Positions 6,483-62,139 of a stretch of 64,000 nt of DNA are shown here, one piece after another. The notes below the pieces were generated by a model. It was not told the origin of the DNA, did not search any database, and saw only the letters and a program-made list of their open reading frames with translations. Each line of letters starts with the position of its first letter. The stretch's first letter is position 1. Both the position numbers and the translations under genes were made by a program. Origin of the DNA: a virus; the IMG/VR virus record IMGVR_UViG_3300027747_002377, positions 1 to 64,000 of that record. One strand, given 5' to 3'.

Positions 6483-7625
6483 TCAAATAATGGTGAAAGC
6501 AGAGGTGATGAAGTCCTTGTTCAGGTTAGCAAAACCGGCGTACAGCTGCCAAATCAGGATGATGAAGCGGCTGAAGTCGTCGTTGTTGTTGATCAGAACC
6601 TGAGCATTAGGACCACCGATGCCTACGCCAACAGCCTGAGGACCAAAGAAAAGGCCAGGAGGAGTTGTATGAGTAATGGCACCAGAACCGTCACCGATAT
6701 CAACGGTGATGGATTTATCAGCAAAGTTGGTTGATTCGAAGAAGCGAACACCTTCAAATACAAAACCGGTAGGCATTACAGGTTCACCAGCCACGAACAT
6801 GGCTTGGCCGTACTGACCACCGCCATAGATGGCTTGGTTAGGAGCGCCAGCACCCATCAGAGGGTTGCCTTGGCCCATGCCTGGGTAACGAGCCACTTCA
6901 CGGAAGCCTTGGTCAGCGCGGAGATCCTTCATGAATGAAGGGTCAGCAACGCAACGGTAGTAACCATCTTGGAACACGGGAACGTTGCGCTTACGCAGCT
7001 GACGAACCACTTCCAGAAGGTCGGTCTTCACGTTGAACTTGTAGCGTTCTGAGGCGTACTCAGTAGCGCTATAGGAGTTCAGGGTAGTGGAGGCAGACTT
7101 AGTCTTGCCATTGGGGTAGTAGTAACCGCCTTGGGTATCGCCAGAGGCGCCACGGGACTCAGACTTGGCCATTTCATCAAGGAACACACGGTCCCTCCAA
7201 CGGCGGTAGTCGTCCAGCAGGGTCAGCGAACCGATGGACTGGTGGAACATGTTAAGGTTCCCGGTGTCCAGCAGCAGACGCTGAGCGGTCATCAGGGTCT
7301 CACGAGCAATCTTGAAGGTACTCGGGAGGTTGGTGTTGTTCGGGTCAGCAGGACCGGTGTACTCACGCAAGGAAACAAGAACCTTGTCCTTTACGATGGC
7401 ACGGCTGCTAGCGGTACCGATGGTTTGATCTTGGGTACGCTCGCGGCTGGTCTTCGTCCCAGGGTTGCCCCAGAAACGATAACGGTCTAACTGTACAGTC
7501 TGACCAGGTTGTTTGGTAAAGTCATGGACCACGACGGGCTCAGCCGCCATTTCCACAATGTAAGCTGGGTGAGGGCGGTAAAGTTCCGCACCCAACAGCT
7601 TAGGAAAATCGTTATCGATAAACAT
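6483..7625 (-). CDS. Major capsid protein
   Basis: 380 residues. Order after portal and scaffold-like genes, length, and motifs such as DRYRFWGNPG near the N-terminus, GYYRCVADPSFMKDLRAD in the middle and FEGVRFFESTNFADKS toward the C-terminus fit an HK97-fold capsid protein of the broad N4-gp56-like type. The C-terminal QLYAGFANLNKDF would be the end of the P/A domains. It has its own candidate promoter and a leader hairpin. Role is well supported by context; exact family is inferred. Confidence 0.75.
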   Translation of the reverse strand: MFIDNDFPKLLGAELYRPHPAYIVEMAAEPVVVHDFTKQPGQTVQLDRYRFWGNPGTKTSRERTQDQTIGTASSRAIVKDKVLVSLREYTGPADPNNTNLPSTFKIARETLMTAQRLLLDTGNLNMFHQSIGSLTLLDDYRRWRDRVFLDEMAKSESRGASGDTQGGYYYPNGKTKSASTTLNSYSATEYASERYKFNVKTDLLEVVRQLRKRNVPVFQDGYYRCVADPSFMKDLRADQGFREVARYPGMGQGNPLMGAGAPNQAIYGGGQYGQAMFVAGEPVMPTGFVFEGVRFFESTNFADKSITVDIGDGSGAITHTTPPGLFFGPQAVGVGIGGPNAQVLINNNDDFSRFIILIWQLYAGFANLNKDFITSAFTII

Positions 7626-7737: not shown

Positions 7738-8031
7738 TTAACCCATTGGATGAAACTGTGGATCCACACCAGTGTAACCATCAACCATATTTCCGTACCG
7801 ATAAGATGTAGGTGCCATGGCGCCCATCATGTGATAAGGATTAGTCGTGGGAGTCTGCAGAGCAATCTGCTGAGCTTGAATTTCAGGATTAATACCAGCA
7901 CCTTGTGATTGGGCTAAGGCAATCATTTGTGCATTGGCTTGCTGCTGTTCAGCTTGGTTAGCAGAGGCTTTCTTCTGGCTGCTACGAGCTTTGGCCTTTG
8001 TCTTAGCAGTCTTTGCTTTCTTGGCGTCCAT
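7738..8031 (-). CDS. Small Lys-rich then Gln-rich protein, 97 aa
   Basis: First 25 residues are nearly all Lys/Ala/Ser (possible nucleic-acid binding tail), then a Gln/Ala-rich helix, then an uncharged Tyr/Met/Gly end. Shares one base with the upstream stop. Between the scaffold-like and capsid genes; likely a minor head protein. No family. Confidence 0.6.
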   Translation of the reverse strand: MDAKKAKTAKTKAKARSSQKKASANQAEQQQANAQMIALAQSQGAGINPEIQAQQIALQTPTTNPYHMMGAMAPTSYRYGNMVDGYTGVDPQFHPMG

Positions 8032-8585
8032 CAGCGGCGACCTTTTTGTTGGGGTTGTGGTGGCATTGCGCCAATAGGAAGCTGTCCGGTTGGCGGCATG
8101 TAACCGGTCATCATTTGTTGTTGATATGCCGTACCTTGATCTTGATTTATTTGTGCGGCCCTTAGATTATGACTTGCCAACACACCATACTGAGGTAGTG
8201 GTGAACCAAATGTATTTAGATTCAAGTAGCCCATTTGAAGATCTTGGGGCATAGGTGAACCTTGTACATGTGGGGAACCAATTTGAATGGCGTCACCAGC
8301 CATACGGCCTTTTTTGTTTTGTTGGTTAGCAACTGCTGCTCCTACTGCCGCGCCTGCACCAAGACCGGCAATACCGGCTGCTGCAACTCCACCCCATGAT
8401 GGTGGGCCTGGAGGAGGAGGAGTAGTTACTGAAGAAAGGAATTGAGAAGCACGATTGCCTACGCTGGTTGCTGCTTGCCCAACTGCTTGACCTACTGGAC
8501 CTTCTTGGACGGCCTGTACGCCTTTTTTTACTGCTGCACCTGCGCCAGTTACAGCAGATTGAACGCCCTGCGGCATGTTAAACAT
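8031..8585 (-). CDS. Virion-arm protein with Gly/Ala zipper, 184 aa
   Basis: An Ala/Gly/Val-rich helix at about 66-87 (GVAAAGIAGLGAGAAVGAAV) could be membrane-active. RMAGD follows at residues 94-98, then a Gln/Met/Pro-rich tail. It follows a rho-independent terminator, so it must have its own start signal or readthrough. Possibly an internal or membrane-interacting virion protein. Confidence 0.6.
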   Translation of the reverse strand: MFNMPQGVQSAVTGAGAAVKKGVQAVQEGPVGQAVGQAATSVGNRASQFLSSVTTPPPPGPPSWGGVAAAGIAGLGAGAAVGAAVANQQNKKGRMAGDAIQIGSPHVQGSPMPQDLQMGYLNLNTFGSPLPQYGVLASHNLRAAQINQDQGTAYQQQMMTGYMPPTGQLPIGAMPPQPQQKGRR

Positions 8586-8604: not shown

Positions 8605-8632
8605 ATAAAAAAGGGGTAGCACTTACTACCCC
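8605..8632 (-). terminator. Rho-independent terminator after scaffold-like gene
   Basis: On the minus strand: GGGGTAG-6 nt-CTACCCC followed by TTTTTTATT. Perfect 7-bp GC-rich stem. Separates portal/scaffold transcription from the 184-aa, 97-aa and capsid genes. Confidence 0.85.
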
Positions 8633-8663
8633 ATATTCTAAACTAAATTGATCAAACTATTGA

Positions 8664-9689
8664 TCATTCCATAACCAGGAGCTTCTGACGGAACACATCA
8701 GGGTTTTGTTGTGCTGCGTTCAGATAGCGCCAGGCATTGGCAGGATCACGCTCGGCAAGGGAACCAAAGCTATTCCAGAAATCAGCTGGAACGCCTTGTG
8801 TTTGCTGAGGTTGGGGAGGAAAGGGCATCTCAGGGCGCTGATACTGAGGAGCAGGAGCAGCAGCAGGACGCGCAAACTGTTGACCAACTGATTGACCGTA
8901 AGCTGGAGTTTCATCAGGAATCGGGTAAGGACCGTTTTCACCGAAGAATTCACAGGTGTAGTCAGCAAGTACGTCAGGATCGGTAAGAATTGTCTCATAA
9001 GCACGATGCTCATTAGACAGTTCTTGCAGAAGATTTACTGCTTGAACCAATTGATTATTGGTTACAATAAGAGCATCTTCAATACGGCAAGCATAATCAT
9101 TAAGGATGGCAGGAGCGTCTGCACCAAAATGATCAATTACGTTAAGACTTTCTTGACTTACTCCGCTTGCTTGGGCCTGTTGCTGGAGGCTGGGTGCCGG
9201 TGAGGTTTGGGAATAACCGTTGGAGTACCCCTGGCTGTTGTTGATCCCAGGCGTATAGATCTCCGTCCCCTGGTTGCTGTACTGGGGAACCGCTTGGGAA
9301 CTGTAGTTGGCCGGAGCGTACTGAGTACTCGTTTGAGACTGTTGACCCTGGAACGGGAACTGAACTGGAGAGCTCAGGAGTCCCACTACCCTGTTGAACG
9401 CCTCCTTGTACGGATTCTCCGCCTGCGGGGCTTGTGGGGCCTGTGGGGCTGCCTGGTAGGCTTGGGGGTACGACGCTGTAGGGGCGTATTGGGACGGGCT
9501 GACCCCCATCTGGGCCTGCATTTGCGGGGCTGGGGCCGTTGCCTGCTGGTAAGGCGCCACCCATTGGGAAGTTGTTGAAACTACCGGAGCCTGGGCTGCC
9601 GTTTGTGCTACCGGAGCCGCGTAGCTGATCGGTTGGGTCTGAGATACTTGGGGTGCCGATTGGATCGGCATTGCGGTATCGGCCTGCAT
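8664..9689 (-). CDS. Scaffold-like protein overlapping portal
   Basis: 341 residues. N-terminal half is Gln/Ala/Pro-rich low complexity with one ordered patch (NPYKEAFNRVVGLLSS, about 93-108). The second half is ordered and acidic (VIDHFGADAPAILNDYACRI and a helix ending EHRAYETILTD), ending in a normal helical tail. The ATG has a strong ribosome site (AAAGAGGT, 5-nt spacer) although it lies inside the portal gene, so the first 182 codons are double-coding. Position between portal and capsid, and a helical acidic C-half, fit a scaffolding protein (inference). The alternative is translation starting near 9140. Confidence 0.65.
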   Translation of the reverse strand: MQADTAMPIQSAPQVSQTQPISYAAPVAQTAAQAPVVSTTSQWVAPYQQATAPAPQMQAQMGVSPSQYAPTASYPQAYQAAPQAPQAPQAENPYKEAFNRVVGLLSSPVQFPFQGQQSQTSTQYAPANYSSQAVPQYSNQGTEIYTPGINNSQGYSNGYSQTSPAPSLQQQAQASGVSQESLNVIDHFGADAPAILNDYACRIEDALIVTNNQLVQAVNLLQELSNEHRAYETILTDPDVLADYTCEFFGENGPYPIPDETPAYGQSVGQQFARPAAAPAPQYQRPEMPFPPQPQQTQGVPADFWNSFGSLAERDPANAWRYLNAAQQNPDVFRQKLLVME

Positions 9690-11418
9690 AGGTTACCTCT
9701 TTTTGTAGGCTTTCGAGAGTTCGGTAAAGGAACGGTGTGAGATCGAGACGGGGGTCCGCAGCCATCGGTAAATCCGGTTGCTGTGGATGCGGTGTCCTCA
9801 TTTCCCGGTTAACCAGGTCAATGAATGTGGACATCGCCTTCTGTACTTCACCTACCATACGGAATGGGAAACCGGAGAGCATGCCCGCGATTTCGTCGTC
9901 CGTTTTTGAAGGGAACAAATACTTCAGTGCTTCAATGCTATCAACACCTAATTCCTGTAGGTTACGTGTAAAGATAGATTGGTTAAGTTTGTCTTGAGCA
10001 GTGTCTTCATAAACAGGTCCCATCCAGCGCCAGCAGACCGTTCTATCTCCGTCTGGAGCAAGGCCAAGAACGCCAGGAGGTACCTGTTTTGTTTGTACTG
10101 CATTATCAATTGCAGCCTGTAAACTCTTTTCATACTTATCTTTTGCTTTCTCGTATTTGATTTTTAACTTCTCATCTTCTGGATCTTCTGGCGGGGCTGG
10201 ATACTGTAGTCCAGATTGGTACGCCATTGTTTTTCGGAAGATTTGTTCTTCCTGAAAAATCATTAATTCAAAACATCTACAGATACCGTATGTATAAATC
10301 TGTAAACATTTCTTTTTAGCTGTTGCACTTACGCGGCCATACGCTGATTTAATTTCAGTCGCAGTTACGTTTGTAATACTTAGATCATCAATGCCGCCAA
10401 GGGCTAGACGTATTTCAGAACGTAGTTGTTCTGCATACCTGGCCTGATCAGTACTAATTGCATTAGGTGTAATAAACCCTACACGATCTGCTGGCTCCAG
10501 GTTAGCAATAACACGAGGAACCCTCATGCCTGTACCAGGTTTTCCTAGGTAGCCAGGGGCTTGTCGTGTTACGTTGTCTTGGCGATAAGTAGAACTTGAT
10601 AGTGCAAAATCAGATTGGAAACCAGACTGGCTTGCAATGCTTGGTCGTTGTGCAACGTCACCATCTTTCTGTTCAATGATGTCTTGCTTAGGCCGAGAAG
10701 ACAGCAGTGTTGGGTTACCAAAGAAAGAAAGGTTTGCCCGAATGTTTTTAACCATCTCATCGTGTGCGATGATCTGATTACCAAGCCATTCAAACTCACC
10801 ACTACCTTCAGTGCCGAAGGCATCTGGATTATTAAATACTTCAACACATGGAATAAACTCCATGGTGTTTGCAACGGTTTTTTTGTTAAGCGTGGCAAAC
10901 TCCATTGGGGAGTCAAAGTTTAATTCTTGCTCGCTATGAAACTCTTCAATTTCAGTTGCCGTAATCCGTAGACGCATATACCGTTTATCGGTAGATAGGC
11001 CTACTCCAGAAAATCCTTTGTTGGATTTTACTTTATACGGGTAGATAATGATTACTTCATCTAGTTCACCGTCCGGCGTATAGTATGAACGGTATGCGTC
11101 TTTATCAAACCAATACAATCTGTACGTTTTTTTAGTGGGCCGTATATAGAACAGTCCTTTTCCGTACGAAAGAAAGCGATCCCAGATCGAATCCAACCTG
11201 GCATCAAGCTTATTAAATTTTAAAACCTGCTGGACAAAATCAAATCGTTGAGTACCGAAATTATCCTGATGCGGATAGAATTCCACGCCTTGGCGAATTC
11301 CAAACATACGCATCTGCGAAAGATGCGCGTTCACCAGCATGGTGTCCGCAGAGCCTTCTCCGTCTCGGCTGACGACAGACTTGAGGATAGAATCCAGTGC
11401 CGACTTGCTACCGCTCAT
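9142..11418 (-). CDS. Portal protein
   Basis: 758 residues. Residues about 1-560 have a podovirus-like portal appearance: an N-terminal helical region, YGKGLFYIRPTKKTYRLYWF, then conserved-looking GGIDDLSITNVTATEIKSAYG at about 340-360 and a long helical stem with KIKYEKAKDKYEKSLQAA. The last 180 residues are Pro/Gly/Ser-rich, ending in a basic tail (KRSKSRKS), and are encoded by the DNA that also encodes the start of the scaffold-like protein. Forms the dodecameric DNA entry channel on which the terminase docks. Call based on context, length and composition. Confidence 0.75.
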   Translation of the reverse strand: MSGSKSALDSILKSVVSRDGEGSADTMLVNAHLSQMRMFGIRQGVEFYPHQDNFGTQRFDFVQQVLKFNKLDARLDSIWDRFLSYGKGLFYIRPTKKTYRLYWFDKDAYRSYYTPDGELDEVIIIYPYKVKSNKGFSGVGLSTDKRYMRLRITATEIEEFHSEQELNFDSPMEFATLNKKTVANTMEFIPCVEVFNNPDAFGTEGSGEFEWLGNQIIAHDEMVKNIRANLSFFGNPTLLSSRPKQDIIEQKDGDVAQRPSIASQSGFQSDFALSSSTYRQDNVTRQAPGYLGKPGTGMRVPRVIANLEPADRVGFITPNAISTDQARYAEQLRSEIRLALGGIDDLSITNVTATEIKSAYGRVSATAKKKCLQIYTYGICRCFELMIFQEEQIFRKTMAYQSGLQYPAPPEDPEDEKLKIKYEKAKDKYEKSLQAAIDNAVQTKQVPPGVLGLAPDGDRTVCWRWMGPVYEDTAQDKLNQSIFTRNLQELGVDSIEALKYLFPSKTDDEIAGMLSGFPFRMVGEVQKAMSTFIDLVNREMRTPHPQQPDLPMAADPRLDLTPFLYRTLESLQKEVTYAGRYRNADPIGTPSISDPTDQLRGSGSTNGSPGSGSFNNFPMGGALPAGNGPSPANAGPDGGQPVPIRPYSVVPPSLPGSPTGPTSPAGGESVQGGVQQGSGTPELSSSVPVPGSTVSNEYSVRSGQLQFPSGSPVQQPGDGDLYAWDQQQPGVLQRLFPNLTGTQPPATGPSKRSKSRKS

Positions 11419-11442: not shown

Positions 11443-11625
11443 TTATGCCTCAACTTCGTAACCGGCGTGCAGCCTTTTGAGTGTAATCACATCGTCCTCT
11501 ACCTCGACATCAAACCGTTCCCCAGGGGTAAGGGACATGTCGTGACAGAGTTCGTCGGGAAGTGGAAGCAGGGCAGAGCCGTAAGCGTCCTGTTCAAGCT
11601 CGATGACGTAGTAGCCGGTAGACAT
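11443..11625 (-). CDS. AbrB/SpoVT-like small protein, 60 aa
   Basis: The pattern (LPLPDELCHDMSLTPGERFD then VEVEDDVITLKRL) matches the swapped-hairpin AbrB/MazE fold: a strand, 'P-x-E-h' loop, 'hxxGD/E', two strands. Similar to the plus-strand protein at 47450-47659. Sits between terminase and portal. Could be a DNA-binding regulator or a structural use of the fold. Confidence 0.5.
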   Translation of the reverse strand: MSTGYYVIELEQDAYGSALLPLPDELCHDMSLTPGERFDVEVEDDVITLKRLHAGYEVEA

Positions 11626-11655: not shown

Positions 11656-14118
11656 TCAATACTCTAACTCTAGTTTTCCTCTGGTCATTAAACCATTACA
11701 AAGCCAAACGAGAGCGTCGACACAATCGTCGTGGGAGCTGACACCAAAATTTACAATCTCATCAGTTAGAGCCATAAATTTGCGGTACCTGTTAAAGACT
11801 AGCTTACGTTGCTCAAATAAACCCATAATCCCCCTGAAACGTGCTACTTTGTCCCCGCGAAATCCTTTGACCGCATGCCAGTTAATGTTGTAAAGACCGT
11901 GGTCACCTTGGCATATCCTCCTGAAGTCTGCCTCCAGGGATGCCTGATATGCAACTGCTTCCGACCAAACATCAATGCTGCTTCCGGTTGGGTGGTAATC
12001 ATTACCGTCTTTATGCACTACTCCCCATTCATACAGCATTTCCATTAAAGCTTCGAGTTTTTCTAGGTTTCCCATGATGCGAATTCGCTTGCAATCAATA
12101 ATGTGAATTTTGTCCCCTACTCTTCCGCCCATAACAAACACGGTGTAGTCATTACGTTCTCTTACTCCAGCAGATAAATCAACGCCAATACCAAGTGAAT
12201 CAAAGTGCGTAGAAATTTGACCCTTAACAATTAAGTCAGGTGAGATAGATAGTTCACTGGTCTGTACGATTTGATTTTGATACTGAAAACTAAAACTGAT
12301 TGGAGCTTGACGGCGGCGATCTTGAAGGTATTCAAGTGACCACATTTCAGGCCAATAAGAAACTTCGTCGCCTTGTTCGTCTACAGTAATGGCAGATTGG
12401 ACAATCTGTACCCAATCGTTGCCAGGGGTGAAGGTACTGGCATGAACATCATCATGACGGAACCTAGTACCTAGACAGACTGCACGTCCACCTTCAAACA
12501 TTGTTGGTGTGATAACTGAGTTCCAGTTATCCTCCATTGCCACTCGGATATCCCTGTTCTTAATGTCGTCAGAGCTCTTAATCGGGTCATCTATTATACA
12601 ATTTGCTACACAGAACTTACCTTTACCCGCAAAGAAGTTATGGTTTGTGGATCTTGTTTCAAGGTCATAGACATACTCCTCTCCGCTGCTAATTTCTGAA
12701 ACGGCGGAAATGGTAGCTCCACTATCTTTGCTTTTTCTGCTAATTGATGATAGCTTGTATGGCAGGGCCTGCAGACAGTAATTAAATTCTGTAATACGTT
12801 GTTCTTCGGATTTGCATCGATATGGTGCACAACTAAGTTGGTTCTTACGTGTTGATTTTTTGCAGTCAACATTTGTTCCTTGATATTGCATAGAGAACAG
12901 GTCATATTGTCCCTTTTTAAAATTAATTCTCGCAGCTCCGGTAGTTTTGGCCTGCTCATGCCGTGCCGCCAATTTGAGTTCCACTTCCCCTTCATCATTC
13001 TGGAATGAACTTTGGAGGAACAAATTTTTGTACAGTAGACGCTTTCCGAGTTTCTTGGTTGGAAACTCTGATTGCATTCTGGGCAAATCTTTGGAAACAA
13101 AATTTGTTTGTATTTTCCTGCACACTTCTTTGAACAGAAAAACATTTTTATTTTGCTGTTTCGAGATAGCTGTCTCCAGTTTGTATTTACCTGAAAGCTT
13201 GTTTGACAGGTTGGACAACTTGTTTTTATTTTTATCTTGAAGGCAATCGGAATAACTAAGCAGCCGATCCCCAGCTTTGAGATCTTTGGCGCACACAATT
13301 CCCCGCCCTGGGATATAAAAAGGGTGTTCTGGGGTTGCCCGTATGAGATCTCCAGTGCTTGTTTCCACGTGGATAAACCGGTCGGCAAGGCGTCTAGACA
13401 CTGCGTGTATTCCTGACCACTCAACGGCACTTGTTTCTGGGTTGTATGTGCTGACTCTATAATCTTTTGGTTGTTGATACAGGTCATGGATTGGAATGGA
13501 GCCGTGTTGCGTATTGACAAGTGTATCACCTGTCAGGCATAAATGGCTACGCTTTGAGGTCACAGCACCTTTTAGTCCAGCGCAACAAAGAGTAAATTCT
13601 TCTTCACCAGTAGATTTAATGCCAGCAAACTTCCAATCAATACTCCAGTATTCGTTACTATTAATTCCTTTGGCAATCTTCACCATTGGAAATACTTCTT
13701 TGTATGTTTTACTTTCTTCTAAAATTCTTTTGATGGCTGCACTTTTAGGGCGAGCAACATCAACGGTATAAGAAATGTAAAGAATCTTTAGTGGTTTTTT
13801 ATTTAATGCGTGTACACCGATTGTCCATGCTGTGAACAAACCTAAAATGGTCGACTTGGCTGAACCCCGTGGTCCTAATATGTCTACGTTTGGTCCTGCA
13901 ATACCAATCAAGCACTCAGAATCATTTCCTGTGCATAGGTGCTGATGCCAGAGAAGGTGGTGAGCTGCTGGCGGTTTGTCGCCAACTACAGTACAGAAGT
14001 AAGCAAAGTCTACCCGTGCCCGTTCAATATCAATGTCGGAACTTTTTTTTACTACTTGTTGCTTTGCTGCAGCACGTGCAGTCCTCCGGTAAACGGAGTA
14101 TAGGGAAGTACCAGCCAT
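11656..14118 (-). CDS. terL: Terminase large subunit interrupted by intein
   Basis: 820 codons, of which 507 remain after intein removal, a normal TerL size. ATPase Walker A GPRGSAKST is at residues 82-90. Walker B (hydrophobics then IIDDP) is split by the intein: Leu193 precedes it and Cys-Ile-Ile-Asp-Asp-Pro follows. The C-terminal nuclease domain has the first acidic strand (GIGVDLSAGVRERNDYTVFV) and a terminal acidic strand (SSHDDCVDALVW). It pumps DNA into the prohead through the portal. Start follows the possible small-terminase gene by 24 nt. Without splicing the Walker B strand would be disrupted, so packaging probably depends on splicing. Confidence 0.9.
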   Translation of the reverse strand: MAGTSLYSVYRRTARAAAKQQVVKKSSDIDIERARVDFAYFCTVVGDKPPAAHHLLWHQHLCTGNDSECLIGIAGPNVDILGPRGSAKSTILGLFTAWTIGVHALNKKPLKILYISYTVDVARPKSAAIKRILEESKTYKEVFPMVKIAKGINSNEYWSIDWKFAGIKSTGEEEFTLCCAGLKGAVTSKRSHLCLTGDTLVNTQHGSIPIHDLYQQPKDYRVSTYNPETSAVEWSGIHAVSRRLADRFIHVETSTGDLIRATPEHPFYIPGRGIVCAKDLKAGDRLLSYSDCLQDKNKNKLSNLSNKLSGKYKLETAISKQQNKNVFLFKEVCRKIQTNFVSKDLPRMQSEFPTKKLGKRLLYKNLFLQSSFQNDEGEVELKLAARHEQAKTTGAARINFKKGQYDLFSMQYQGTNVDCKKSTRKNQLSCAPYRCKSEEQRITEFNYCLQALPYKLSSISRKSKDSGATISAVSEISSGEEYVYDLETRSTNHNFFAGKGKFCVANCIIDDPIKSSDDIKNRDIRVAMEDNWNSVITPTMFEGGRAVCLGTRFRHDDVHASTFTPGNDWVQIVQSAITVDEQGDEVSYWPEMWSLEYLQDRRRQAPISFSFQYQNQIVQTSELSISPDLIVKGQISTHFDSLGIGVDLSAGVRERNDYTVFVMGGRVGDKIHIIDCKRIRIMGNLEKLEALMEMLYEWGVVHKDGNDYHPTGSSIDVWSEAVAYQASLEADFRRICQGDHGLYNINWHAVKGFRGDKVARFRGIMGLFEQRKLVFNRYRKFMALTDEIVNFGVSSHDDCVDALVWLCNGLMTRGKLELEY
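12601..13539 (-). other. Terminase intein, 313 codons
   Basis: Residues 194-506 of the terminase reading frame. N-terminus: Cys in a block A (CLTGDTLVNTQHGSIPIHDL). Block B is RATPEHPFYIPGRG with Thr and His. C-terminus: EEYVYDLETRSTNHNFFAGK (block F), ending CVAN before extein Cys. The final Asn is preceded by Ala rather than the usual His, as in a minority of active inteins. N- and C-terminal splicing parts total about 146 residues, the size of a mini-intein. The roughly 166 codons between them look like no domain in this frame but encode an HNH endonuclease in the +1 frame. Confidence 0.88.
12606..13529 (-). CDS. HNH homing endonuclease nested in intein, +1 frame
   Basis: 307 codons open, lying wholly inside the intein but shifted +1 from the terminase frame. 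The recognisable protein is residues about 100-265 (DNA about 12735-13232). It has a zinc finger C105-x2-C108...C132-x3-C136, a second C149-x2-C152...C166-x3-C170, and an HNH domain with C211-x2-C214, LVVHHIDANPKNN (235-236 HH), QNL, and C253-x2-C256-H. Residues 1-99 are only the shadow of the intein N-domain, so the true start is unknown. No ATG precedes the first finger; a TTG in this frame after GGCGGGGAA, or a +1 ribosomal frameshift from the terminase frame, are possibilities. Zinc-finger plus HNH architecture is typical of phage homing endonucleases. Confidence 0.8.
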   Translation of the reverse strand: MIHLSIRNTAPFQSMTCINNQKIIESAHTTQKQVPLSGQEYTQCLDALPTGLSTWKQALEISYGQPQNTLFISQGGELCAPKISKLGIGCLVIPIAFKIKIKTSCPTCQTSFQVNTNWRQLSRNSKIKMFFCSKKCAGKYKQILFPKICPECNQSFQPRNSESVYCTKICSSKVHSRMMKGKWNSNWRHGMSRPKLPELRELILKRDNMTCSLCNIKEQMLTAKNQHVRTNLVVHHIDANPKNNVLQNLITVCRPCHTSYHQLAEKAKIVELPFPPFQKLAAERSMSMTLKQDPQTITSLRVKVSSV

Positions 14119-59050: not shown

Positions 59051-60040
59051 TTAAGCAGTGGCGACGGCTGCTTTATCGGCGGCTTGTTTTTTAGCCAGGG
59101 TATCAAGATAGTCTTGAGAAGCGGTTGAAGGAAGTTTAAATTCGTCTTTTGGAGCTGCAGAGCCAGGCGTAGCACTGGTAGCGGCAGTAGAGCTTCCATC
59201 GGGTGCATAAAAATCACCAGCAGCTTCTCGCGTAAATTCTTTATTAGCGGCTAAAGCTTCTTGTTCTTTAGTATCTGCCGAATAAACATGCTGCCCAGAA
59301 ATAACGTTCATGTATCTTTGAACGTGTTTAGATCCTTCGGCACCTGGTGTTTTAAGTGCACGACCTAGTACGCCTTCACGTACGTAACCTCCTTTTTGTG
59401 CAGACTCAATTTCACCGGGATCAGAAGTAAGAAGATAATCATTAAAATCGCCCCTTCGCAATCTAACTATATCAACTGCGTCAGGAGATTTATCTTCTTG
59501 TCCGAAAAGTTTAAAGGCTTCACCTTCTTTGGTCCATCCAGTTCGTTGAGCAGCTGCTGCTTCATCAGCGTTTTCTATATATACGTGAGCACCAGTAAGT
59601 GGGTTAAGTAGCCTATTTATTTGTTTAGAAGAAGAAGAAGCTGCCGGTGTAGATGCAGTAGCAGCGGTAGCAGCAGCAACATCTCTTTTTTTATTTACAG
59701 CCTCAACATAATCTTTTTGTGCTTCACTTGTAATACCTGTCCAAGTTGAACGTGCTGTTTTCCAAGGATCGACACCACCGGTATTAGCTGAGGTATATTT
59801 ATCAGCAATTGGAAGGGATGACAGGTAATTAGCAGCTTCTCCGGCCTGCCTACCACGTTCACGAGCAGCTTGTTCTTCTGGCGTACCGTATATTTGGTAT
59901 CTACGATTTCGAAACTCTTCTGTTTCTGATTTAATTTTAGCTTTTAACTCAGCGCTACGTTGAAAGTCTGCTTCAGGAATTACAGAAGTGTAAAGCTTGG
60001 GGGCAGCTGGTGCTGGCAAAAAGCCGTATGTCGTGGCCAT
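59051..60040 (-). CDS. DUF5648-repeat virion-type protein, 329 aa
   Basis: Residues about 140-275 contain three repeats of the type RLLNPLTGAHVYIENADEAA... GWTKEGEAFKLF; third copy RYMNVISGQHVYSADTKEQE. These match the DUF5648 pattern (R-h-x-N-x-x-T-G-x-H-h-Y-x-x-x-x-x-E ... G-W-x-x-E-G-x-x-F), found in cell-surface and carbohydrate-associated proteins. N-terminal 130 residues are helical, Ala/Glu-rich. Likely a virion surface adhesin. Confidence 0.65.
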   Translation of the reverse strand: MATTYGFLPAPAAPKLYTSVIPEADFQRSAELKAKIKSETEEFRNRRYQIYGTPEEQAARERGRQAGEAANYLSSLPIADKYTSANTGGVDPWKTARSTWTGITSEAQKDYVEAVNKKRDVAAATAATASTPAASSSSKQINRLLNPLTGAHVYIENADEAAAAQRTGWTKEGEAFKLFGQEDKSPDAVDIVRLRRGDFNDYLLTSDPGEIESAQKGGYVREGVLGRALKTPGAEGSKHVQRYMNVISGQHVYSADTKEQEALAANKEFTREAAGDFYAPDGSSTAATSATPGSAAPKDEFKLPSTASQDYLDTLAKKQAADKAAVATA

Positions 60041-60058
60041 AACCTTTTATTTTTTTAC

Positions 60059-60445
60059 GTGAAACTCTATACTGATCTTACTACCAATAAATTGAGCCAG
60101 GTGCTGGATCCCTACAACCCCCAAGGGGCCGAGAACGATGATCAAAAAAAGCTCGGCGTAGGTAATGGGCCTTTTCATGAGGAGGAAGTTTTGCAGTACA
60201 TGGTCCAGTTTAACGAACTATTGGCCAGTATGTCTACAAAGGTTATGTACTCGTTAATGACTTGGCAGCAAAAGCAGGTAGCGAAGTCCTGGTGGGAGGC
60301 CTGTAATTACGGCGGTAAGCCTAAGCCAGGTGATTTAAAACACATGGAAGACAGACGCAAATATTATGAGTGGGTTTTACGGTTGGACCATATAAGACAG
60401 TGGGAATTTGCGCTAAAAAACGTTAAGATACCGGCAGAACCGTAA
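60059..60445 (+). CDS. Plus-strand protein, 128 aa
   Basis: GTG start at 60059, preferred because the upstream in-frame part is antisense to the DUF5648 gene. Ends in helices with many Trp/Tyr (TWQQKQVAKSWWEACNYGGK, WVLRLDHIRQWEFALKNVKI). Unknown; followed by a gene 10 nt away. Confidence 0.55.
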   Translation: MKLYTDLTTNKLSQVLDPYNPQGAENDDQKKLGVGNGPFHEEEVLQYMVQFNELLASMSTKVMYSLMTWQQKQVAKSWWEACNYGGKPKPGDLKHMEDRRKYYEWVLRLDHIRQWEFALKNVKIPAEP

Positions 60446-60455
60446 AATTTCTTTC

Positions 60456-61043
60456 ATGTTGTCGGACATCTGGCTTGAAGAGGAGATACCTGTAAGTCCG
60501 AACAAGGCTGCCGCTCCTATTGACCCTAATAAATACGTTAGTTATAGGTTCAACGGGCTTGATATACCTGAGGTAACCATAGAAAACCATGAAGAAAAGC
60601 TGGTACCGTCCCTGGCAAGACAGGTAGAAATGTTTTTACCGCCCTCAGGAAGCTTTGAGGAGGCTGATTTAAGGCGTTACCTAGAGCTTGTGCGTAGCTA
60701 TGAGACCTCTACAAACGACCTTGTACTTGGGCTTTCATTGGCAGATCAAATACGCATATGTTTTAGCGACATGGTGCCAGCAAAGATCTGTTCTAAGTTT
60801 CCTGACATCGATCTAGCCACAAAACGCAGGTATCGGTGCGTTGCTGAGTACCTTATACGCCAGGAGGAACTGATCAAGATGAGGGATACATCAGGAAAAC
60901 TGATAAAAGAAGTAGGCAACCTTGGGAAAATGGTAGTAATCTATCGTCCACTGCCAAAAATAAGGGAAACCTTAAGGCGTTCAGGTCTAGCTAACTTCAT
61001 TAAGCCTTCGCCAAGGGAGCAGGCAGAGCAAGCCGTACAATAA
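60456..61043 (+). CDS. Plus-strand protein, 195 aa
   Basis: Helical (LRRYLELVRSYETSTNDLVL, LATKRRYRCVAEYLIRQEEL) with an acidic Pro-rich start. Coupled in operon with the 128-aa gene. No family recognised; composition like a replication accessory or packaging protein but unsupported. Confidence 0.55.
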   Translation: MLSDIWLEEEIPVSPNKAAAPIDPNKYVSYRFNGLDIPEVTIENHEEKLVPSLARQVEMFLPPSGSFEEADLRRYLELVRSYETSTNDLVLGLSLADQIRICFSDMVPAKICSKFPDIDLATKRRYRCVAEYLIRQEELIKMRDTSGKLIKEVGNLGKMVVIYRPLPKIRETLRRSGLANFIKPSPREQAEQAVQ

Positions 61044-61079
61044 TTTTCAAGGTATCCGAATCAATTTTTTCTTTTTTCT

Positions 61080-61088
61080 TGCTATCAT
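61080..61088 (+). promoter_or_regulatory. Extended -10 promoter
   Basis: TTGCTATCAT (TG one base before TATCAT) after a pyrimidine-rich stretch, about 27 nt before the ATG of the next gene. No clear -35. Confidence 0.45.
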
Positions 61089-61114
61089 CTTAAACAACCA
61101 CACTTAAACAGCAT

Positions 61115-61522
61115 ATGACTAACTACAAAGCAAAGAAACTATCAAAGCTACTGGGAACAGCTTCGACCCAGACGGAACGCTTGATGGCAGAGCTTGCCGT
61201 TGAAAGGGTTTGCGATGATATGTGTGATTTTTACGATAGGTTCTACTTCTTTGAGGGGCCAGGTGCAATGGTGTACGTGCCGATGGCCAAGGAAGAAAAA
61301 GATACTATGTTCTACATGACTGTTGCTGCGCTTATTGCAGCCAAAGCAGACTTTGAAAGTAAAGATATGGATGGACTTGCCGAAGTAATGCGTAAGGCGA
61401 TTGTTAAGGCGGAAGCCCTTGATCAAGAGAAGGAAGCTTTATTCATTATTCAGGATCCAGAGCACATGTCCCTGCTCCACTACAACCGTCAGAAGGGTGC
61501 GTCTGGGTTTGCTATGGCATGA
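61115..61522 (+). CDS. Plus-strand helical protein, 135 aa
   Basis: Helical (AELAVERVCDDMCDFYDRFY, EKDTMFYMTVAALIAAKADF). 4-nt overlap with the methyltransferase-like gene downstream, suggesting linked function. No family recognised. Confidence 0.6.
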   Translation: MTNYKAKKLSKLLGTASTQTERLMAELAVERVCDDMCDFYDRFYFFEGPGAMVYVPMAKEEKDTMFYMTVAALIAAKADFESKDMDGLAEVMRKAIVKAEALDQEKEALFIIQDPEHMSLLHYNRQKGASGFAMA

Positions 61523-62139
61523 GTTACTACAAAAACCTACCTCGATACCTATTCCTCACCAGGATCTTAAGGATAGAGGAGGACTGGTTAACTCCTGTTG
61601 AGTATTTACCATATATTTATGCATTGCTTGGTGACATTGACCTTGATCCATGCACAACAGAGCATGCAAACAAAGAGTACCTACGCGCAAAGAAAATATA
61701 CACATTGAAAGAAGACGGGCTAAATACCCATGAACCTTGGCTTGGTAAGACTTATTTATTCCCTCCAACATATGGACGTTGTTCTTTCAGTAAAGAGCGT
61801 GGAACCTGGAGGTGGGGATTAAAGGGCGGCCATAGGGGTAAATCCCCTTCTGTTGTATGGTTTAATCGTTTAGAAAAAGAGTGGAAGCTTCGGAATGTAT
61901 CTGAGGCTTTACTTTTTTCTACGAGCCACGAAATATTAAGAAGCTGCCCTACGCTTTGGGATTACCCAGTTTGTATACCAAAAGATCGAGCCAGGTTGAT
62001 ACACGGAAGACTTATGTGTACACTTGGGGCACCGTTCACGTGGGGTTTCTTTGTTTATTTACCTGGGACAGACCTTGGGTTTAATCAAGTAGACAGGTTT
62101 AAAGAAATTTTTTCCCACATAGGAAAAGTTATCTGTTAA
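61519..62139 (+). CDS. Dam-like N6-adenine methyltransferase, altered motif
   Basis: 206 residues. Matches the phage Dam family (PF05869 type): DWLTPVEYLPYIYALLG, DIDLDPCTTEHANKEYLRAK, then EDGLNTHEPWLGKTYLFPPT. The catalytic NPPY/DPPY is replaced by FPPTY, so the Asn/Asp that contacts adenine is missing. The C-terminal half (SVVWFNRLEKEWKLRNVSEA, SHEILRSCPTLWDYPVCIPK) is conserved-looking. It may be inactive, act on another target, or bind DNA only. Confidence 0.65.
   Translation: MSYYKNLPRYLFLTRILRIEEDWLTPVEYLPYIYALLGDIDLDPCTTEHANKEYLRAKKIYTLKEDGLNTHEPWLGKTYLFPPTYGRCSFSKERGTWRWGLKGGHRGKSPSVVWFNRLEKEWKLRNVSEALLFSTSHEILRSCPTLWDYPVCIPKDRARLIHGRLMCTLGAPFTWGFFVYLPGTDLGFNQVDRFKEIFSHIGKVIC

Follow-up and report, generated by a model that had tools for sequence, protein, structure and literature searches.

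A widespread lineage of cyanobacterial viruses around the Synechococcus phage S-EIV1 has a stretch of about 180 codons that, judging from its sequence, encodes two protein segments at once, the end of the portal and the N-terminal half of a scaffold-like protein. We put at roughly 0.88 the probability that two head-assembly genes share one dual-coding segment, the second frame of which is entered by internal initiation. In the window (the whole 64,000 nt stretch of viral DNA analysed here), the ORF call places both genes on the minus strand, a portal ORF of 758 aa (11418-9142) and a scaffold-like ORF of 341 aa (9689-8664), each with an ATG start, the second beginning within the first. The shared segment (9142-9689, minus strand) spans 548 nt or 182 codons, and is read for the scaffold in a frame shifted by +1 from that of the portal. 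This is the layout that an earlier note, made from the letters of this DNA alone, had described, with the portal frame continuing to 9142 and the next gene starting at 9689, the strand not being given, and its remarks on the composition of the segment hold as well. The overlap is richer in GC (59.7%) than the remaining portal gene (44.0%), the scaffold-only part (47.7%) and the window (44.3%), and none of 635 stepped 548-nt windows matches its GC content. It is also of low complexity in both readings, the portal part being rich in G, P and S, and the scaffold part in Q, A, P and S (clade averages).

The arrangement is kept in the relatives of this virus. A portal search of viral contigs gave 575 relatives, of which the best 80 were kept, together with S-EIV1 (KJ410740) and its 80 best. 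Both ORFs are present in 162 loci (window included) of the window-like and S-EIV1-like freshwater clades, always (162/162) in the +1 frame and with an ATG start, and the overlap ranges from 515 to 641 nt. In the alignment, the scaffold ATG occupies a single column in all 161 loci with a complete portal, a count that leaves out L107, where the portal runs off the contig. At 95% DNA identity, these 161 loci are represented by 89, of which 45 belong to the window clade and 44 to the S-EIV1 clade. In S-EIV1 itself, the gene order of the structural module is that of the window, the portal is 58% identical over residues 4-600, the major capsid protein (MCP) is 70% identical, and the scaffold ORF in its extended form (about 59,287-60,264 of the record) reaches 554 nt back into the portal gene, a +1 overlap as in the window. 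The S-EIV1 record annotates the scaffold-like gene from after the portal stop, with about half of the gene missing and the overlap unannotated.

Two further samples extend the comparison. Among 116 contigs collected with a 23-nt element of the portal gene (see below), 108 have the scaffold start at the same spacing, and the remaining eight carry less than about 220 nt past the element, too little to show a start. A portal-core peptide sample supplied 63 new contigs, of which 22 were dropped because the portal runs off the contig end; 37 of the 41 that remain overlap by at least 400 nt under an ATG-only rule. Three of the other four (L360, L375 and L405) have a short or missing overlap and look like damaged or cut contigs. 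The fourth, L401 (portal identity 43-44%), is a member of a third clade, in which the overlap is present and the scaffold starts one codon later, with GTG instead of ATG. All of the 80 best L401 relatives keep the overlap (446-536 nt) and the GTG start; 61 of 79 serve as third-clade representatives at 95% DNA identity (L485 is cut). Single loci deviate. A MAG contig (L281:5001-7387) has an intact scaffold ORF but two ORFs in place of one for the portal, along with some 150 additional nt, the result of either an insertion or a misassembly. In L030, the scaffold ORF (6733-7428) stops at 231 aa with similarity running on to the end, which is a frameshift or sequencing error. The comparison of relatives suggested in the earlier note turned up neither a portal stop near 9690 nor a scaffold start near 9140, and a sequencing frameshift in 9142-9689 is ruled out by independent contigs from many samples with the same arrangement. 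The overlap is real, and not an artefact of sequencing or annotation.

The gene order in the window is TerL, portal, scaffold, two small genes and MCP, all on the minus strand. The gene for the terminase large subunit (TerL), which contains an intein, lies upstream of the portal gene (11656-14118; phrog_38, E 8.3e-68; Terminase_6C), and the MCP gene two small genes beyond the scaffold-like gene (6483-7625; phrog_1357, major head protein, E 1.2e-14). The portal (9142-11418) matches phrog_20475, a virion structural protein family, with an E-value of 1.3e-211. The alignments for structure prediction were built from 60 and 59 of 73 listed pairs. The AlphaFold model of the portal, from the alignment of 60 relatives, is confident in parts only (mean pLDDT 44.7). 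With this model as query, the top PDB matches in Foldseek are portals (best E 1e-5), and all 50 of the VIA-align matches shown are portal or portal-complex entries. The best of these (Z 12.7, rmsd 6.2, 263 residues aligned) covers model residues 1-469, and the matches span mainly residues 5-469, which is the core of the protein and not its tail. The fold match, together with the position between TerL and MCP, supports the assignment of the upstream protein as a portal. Helices in the model reach residue 579, so that the core comprises approximately residues 1-579, and the tail (580-758) is almost without predicted structure. The disordered portal tail envisaged earlier agrees with this nearly helix-free region of a model that is poor overall.

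The downstream protein (8664-9689, minus strand) matched no sequence family in Pfam, PHROGs or the PDB; scaffolds diverge fast, so that the absence of a family match does not exclude a scaffold. Its only sequence match is S-EIV1 (tblastn, 41% over residues 95-341). The AlphaFold model is weak (mean pLDDT 45) and predicts a short helix (residues 95-105) and two further helical regions, one central and one C-terminal. The short helix belongs to a motif with invariant residues inside the overlap (NPYKEAFNRVVGLLSSPVQFPFQGQ, 9342-9416), the NPW/Y..AF core of which is preserved in three clades. The helical centre (residues 168-252, 8934-9188) is predicted with low to moderate confidence, and the C-terminal helices (residues 301-340, 8670-8789) with a pLDDT of about 57-64 through residue 340; this last region contains a conserved FW..F....RDP.NAW. 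Capsid scaffolds are largely helical, with C-terminal helices that bind the capsid. The gene order and the predicted helices make it probable that the second protein is a capsid scaffold. With dual coding taken as real, it might instead be another head or neck component, which the missing family match and the two small genes between it and the MCP gene in the window would allow. We regard this as the less probable identity, given the location between portal and MCP, the mostly helical prediction with C-terminal helices, and the fact that no other gene of the portal-MCP interval was found to be common to both freshwater clades.

Some other features of the neighbourhood deserve mention. The two small genes of the window clade (184 and 97 aa, 7738-8585, minus strand) have no match in S-EIV1-clade representatives, and a member of that clade (L280) has a 156-aa gene in their place. 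Between the scaffold stop and the next gene, there is a terminator-like hairpin of eight pairs followed by a T-run (8613-8632, minus strand); as a transcription unit end it is only suggestive, with about 2.4 such sites expected by chance in the region. Between TerL and portal lies a 60-aa ORF (11443-11625, minus strand), with related ORFs in both freshwater clades. A Pfam search with a cut-off of E 0.5 gave no match for it, and its product is, by eye, presumably similar to an AbrB-type swapped-hairpin domain. The TerL intein in the window corresponds to the Pfam family Intein_splicing (residues 202-500). The S-EIV1 TerL (L081:1197-3737) also has an intein, and its record says only putative terminase large subunit. 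Two annotated CDSs, one on the minus strand and a short one on the plus strand (L081:7901-8662 and 8657-9127; S-EIV1 60784-62010), both termed "hypothetical protein", lie over the S-EIV1 MCP homologue (60859-61989), and the true MCP ORF of this phage appears to be unannotated.

In the overlap, the third, first and second positions of portal codons are the second, third and first positions of scaffold codons, so that selection on either frame has its own distinct signature. Per-site substitutions were counted by parsimony on portal-core trees. For portal positions 1/2/3, the counts are 1.63/0.63/11.08 upstream and 3.50/1.10/2.56 in the overlap for the window clade (45 representatives), and 2.28/1.00/10.83 upstream and 4.99/1.86/3.06 in the overlap for the S-EIV1 clade (44 representatives). 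Portal wobble substitutions are 3.5- to 4.3-fold lower inside the overlap, and portal first positions, equivalent to the scaffold wobble, change faster there in both freshwater clades. Right past the portal stop, the scaffold wobble rate is back to about 10 in the window clade and averages 8.7 in the S-EIV1 clade. A simplified pairwise count, which classifies substitutions by their consequence in each of the two frames without multiple-hit correction (300 pairs per clade, related and not independent; codon bootstrap), gives a portal dN/dS in the overlap of 0.39 (0.27-0.52) for the window clade and 0.40 (0.26-0.60) for the S-EIV1 clade, versus 1.32 and 1.28 for the portal-frame control where the scaffold alone is coding. 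For the scaffold frame, the same count gives 0.31 (0.22-0.42) and 0.25 (0.16-0.34), versus 0.81 and 0.84 for the control where the portal alone is coding. The signal is weaker in the third clade (portal 0.66; scaffold 0.55 versus 0.80 in the scaffold-frame control). Both frames are under purifying selection, and start, Shine-Dalgarno sequence and frame are kept in all 241 placeable relatives, in agreement with the double coding that had been proposed from the single sequence.

Constraint alternates along the overlap: the portal is almost free in one stretch, and dominant near its own end. In a stretch of 25 codons, the portal frame is near neutral (dN/dS 0.91 and 0.81). Further on, the tail carries the conserved motif QPGVLQRLFPN (9205-9237), and the part bearing it has a portal dN/dS of 0.14 in the window clade and 0.10 in the S-EIV1 clade. 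The QPG.L..LFP pattern is found in 44 of 45 window-clade and 39 of 44 S-EIV1-clade representatives (83/89), and in none of 61 from the third clade. The portal ends in a basic sequence, KRSKSRKS (9145-9168); the last 14 residues contain, in the three clades, on average 4.6, 5.8 and 5.8 lysines and arginines, with minima of 3, 4 and 0. The near-neutral stretch and the predicted lack of structure might suggest that the scaffold frame alone is coding, and that the portal past about codon 580 is read, but serves as a spacer of indifferent sequence. This appears improbable in view of the portal dN/dS, which lies below that of the scaffold-only control over the overlap and falls to 0.10-0.14 near the end, of the motif shared by two clades, and of the basic end in most members of all three, even if the lowest count of lysines and arginines in one clade is 0. 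If anything, the scaffold frame is the more constrained of the two.

The converse, that the portal frame alone is coding in the overlap, that the scaffold starts past the portal stop and that the open frame results from the low complexity and high GC content of the codons, is how the S-EIV1 record is annotated. The GC content is indeed high, and in some genomes an open frame is not unexpected. In codon permutations of nine single genomes, P(open) was 1.0 for L063 and 0.03 for the window, both of the window clade, 0.02-0.14 for L012, L030 and L040, and 0 to 0.0035 for four S-EIV1-like genomes. The open frame in one genome alone is weak evidence, and the first argument, from a single sequence, was suggestive only; chance is excluded because of the conservation across relatives and the frame-specific selection. 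We consider a portal-only overlap highly improbable, as portal wobble positions (scaffold second positions) are slowed and scaffold wobble positions accelerated inside the overlap, the scaffold dN/dS (0.25-0.31) is well separated from that of the shadow controls (0.81-0.84), the ATG, the Shine-Dalgarno sequence and the stop at -6 do not vary within either freshwater clade, and the S-EIV1 ORF in its extended form is similar to the window protein from residue 95 onwards, a point well before the start given in the record.

The position of the scaffold start is pinned by its Shine-Dalgarno sequence and an upstream in-frame stop. The former, AAAGAGGT (9695-9702, minus strand), lies within portal codons before the ATG (9687-9689), and is the strong ribosome site that had caught attention at the outset. 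It is conserved in relatives, as CAAAAAGAGG, identical in all 45 window-clade representatives, as CAAAAGGAG in all 44 of the S-EIV1 clade, and as AAGGAG in all 61 of the third clade. The stop, TAA (9693-9695, minus strand), stands two codons before the start. It is TAA at -6 in 45/45 window-clade, TGA at -6 in 44/44 S-EIV1-clade, and TAA at -9 in 60/61 third-clade representatives; therefore, the scaffold-like protein cannot begin further upstream. Phages use ribosomal frameshifts, and the scaffold frame is on the same strand at +1, but synthesis of a portal-scaffold fusion by frameshifting in place of internal initiation is very unlikely, because the start codon and the Shine-Dalgarno sequence are conserved in three clades, and a frameshift before the start would terminate at the stop two to three codons upstream that is present in 149 of 150 representatives. 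Single RNA folds around the start, computed for three genomes, are close in stability to those of shuffled sequences or less stable (z -1.41, -0.53 and +1.73). An internal sigma-70 promoter was considered and rejected, with one weak site found versus 2.2 expected, and this site (9054-9082) located downstream of the scaffold start.

The portal gene contains a 23-nt element, GTTGATAGCATTGAAGCACTGAA (9923-9945, minus strand), at a distance of 256 nt upstream of the scaffold start, and synonymous sites in it hardly vary in the two freshwater clades. This near-invariance is absent from the first six third-clade representatives examined. From the element to the scaffold start, synonymous change is approximately 3- to 5-fold low within clades, and the reduction is much smaller in the third clade. 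The element could be a regulatory site, reflect recombination, or both. Nucleotide constraint across the whole 260 nt upstream is unsupported between clades, which share islands alone. A third overlapping ORF, proposed to account for the low synonymous change, was rejected, as no further sense or antisense frame upstream of the scaffold start is stop-free in all representatives. RNA structure in this segment is unsupported as well, with double changes in 5 of 41 predicted pairs (55 of 89 representatives), and Rfam gave no match in the window.

According to the dual-coding model, a ribosome on the portal frame would read on to 9142, and thus make the core and the tail, which is rich in G, P and S and ends in basic residues. 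Another ribosome would enter inside the portal gene, at the Shine-Dalgarno sequence 9695-9702 and the ATG 9687-9689, in the +1 frame, so that the 182 shared codons would also yield the Q/A/P/S-rich N-terminal half of the scaffold-like protein, followed by a presumably helical, single-coding C-terminal half. We infer that both proteins are made from the overlap. A portal ring consists of 12 subunits, and scaffold is required in far larger numbers. Internal initiation would allow a single transcript to yield more scaffold than the 12-copy portal, a need that a separate strong start would fit. The flexible segments would tolerate the double reading, because Q/A/P codons read as P/G/S in the other frame. 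With respect to the order of events, codon usage is equally atypical in both frames and indicates no direction of overprinting; the scaffold could have been overprinted on the portal tail, or equally the reverse.

Portal C-termini point into the head interior, the site of the scaffold, and the tail motif and basic end of the portal may meet the scaffold there. It is a doubtful extension that the portal tail (QPG.L..LFPN and basic end) binds the N-terminal half of the scaffold (NPW/Y..AF helix) at the vertex, and that the overlap serves as a genetic lock. If so, the lock would tie a portal and the scaffold that matches it to a single segment that cannot be separated, fix their translation ratio, and predate the split between the freshwater and third (L401-type) clades.

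There is some precedent for the arrangement. In phage lambda, the scaffold Nu3 is nested in gene C and has an internal start, in-frame with the protease gene. The pair described here is similar in that the scaffold gene shares DNA with an adjoining head gene and starts internally, but its frames differ, and the partner is the portal. In the uncultured phage ctsTn925 (MW202426), whose TerL is distantly related, TerL is followed by the portal, a small gene, a gene of 302 aa and MCP; no long overlap is annotated, and the portal and the 302-aa protein are without detectable similarity to the window proteins. No sequence outgroup was found: phage records gave S-EIV1 alone for portal, MCP and scaffold, a genome scan yielded four loci that are all kin, and among distant TerL relatives MW202426, the one compared, is not alignable. 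In a survey of phage overlaps, the commonest overlap is 4 nt, and the largest one common to different phage families, at a 95% DNA-similarity cut, is 185 nt (PMC7017920), whereas here 446-641 nt are retained at about 43% protein identity. Long same-strand viral overlaps likewise use one stretch in two frames, with both proteins selected (PMC7017920). The survey is annotation-based, and unannotated overlaps are therefore invisible to it. A literature search, with most subscription papers outside its scope, found no description of a portal-scaffold overlap. Overlapping genes are known; the length, age and gene pair are new, in relation to the literature covered.

The S-EIV1 record shows that the reference for a widespread cyanophage lineage is without half of one head gene. 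It is therefore likely that pipelines forbidding long overlaps cut the scaffold-like gene elsewhere as well. A long out-of-frame overlap of two head-assembly genes has been held in an 80-kb dsDNA phage while portals diverged to about 43% identity, and retention over such divergence argues against simple genome compression. The overlap offers a testable case of the way in which one DNA segment can encode two flexible stretches of protein.
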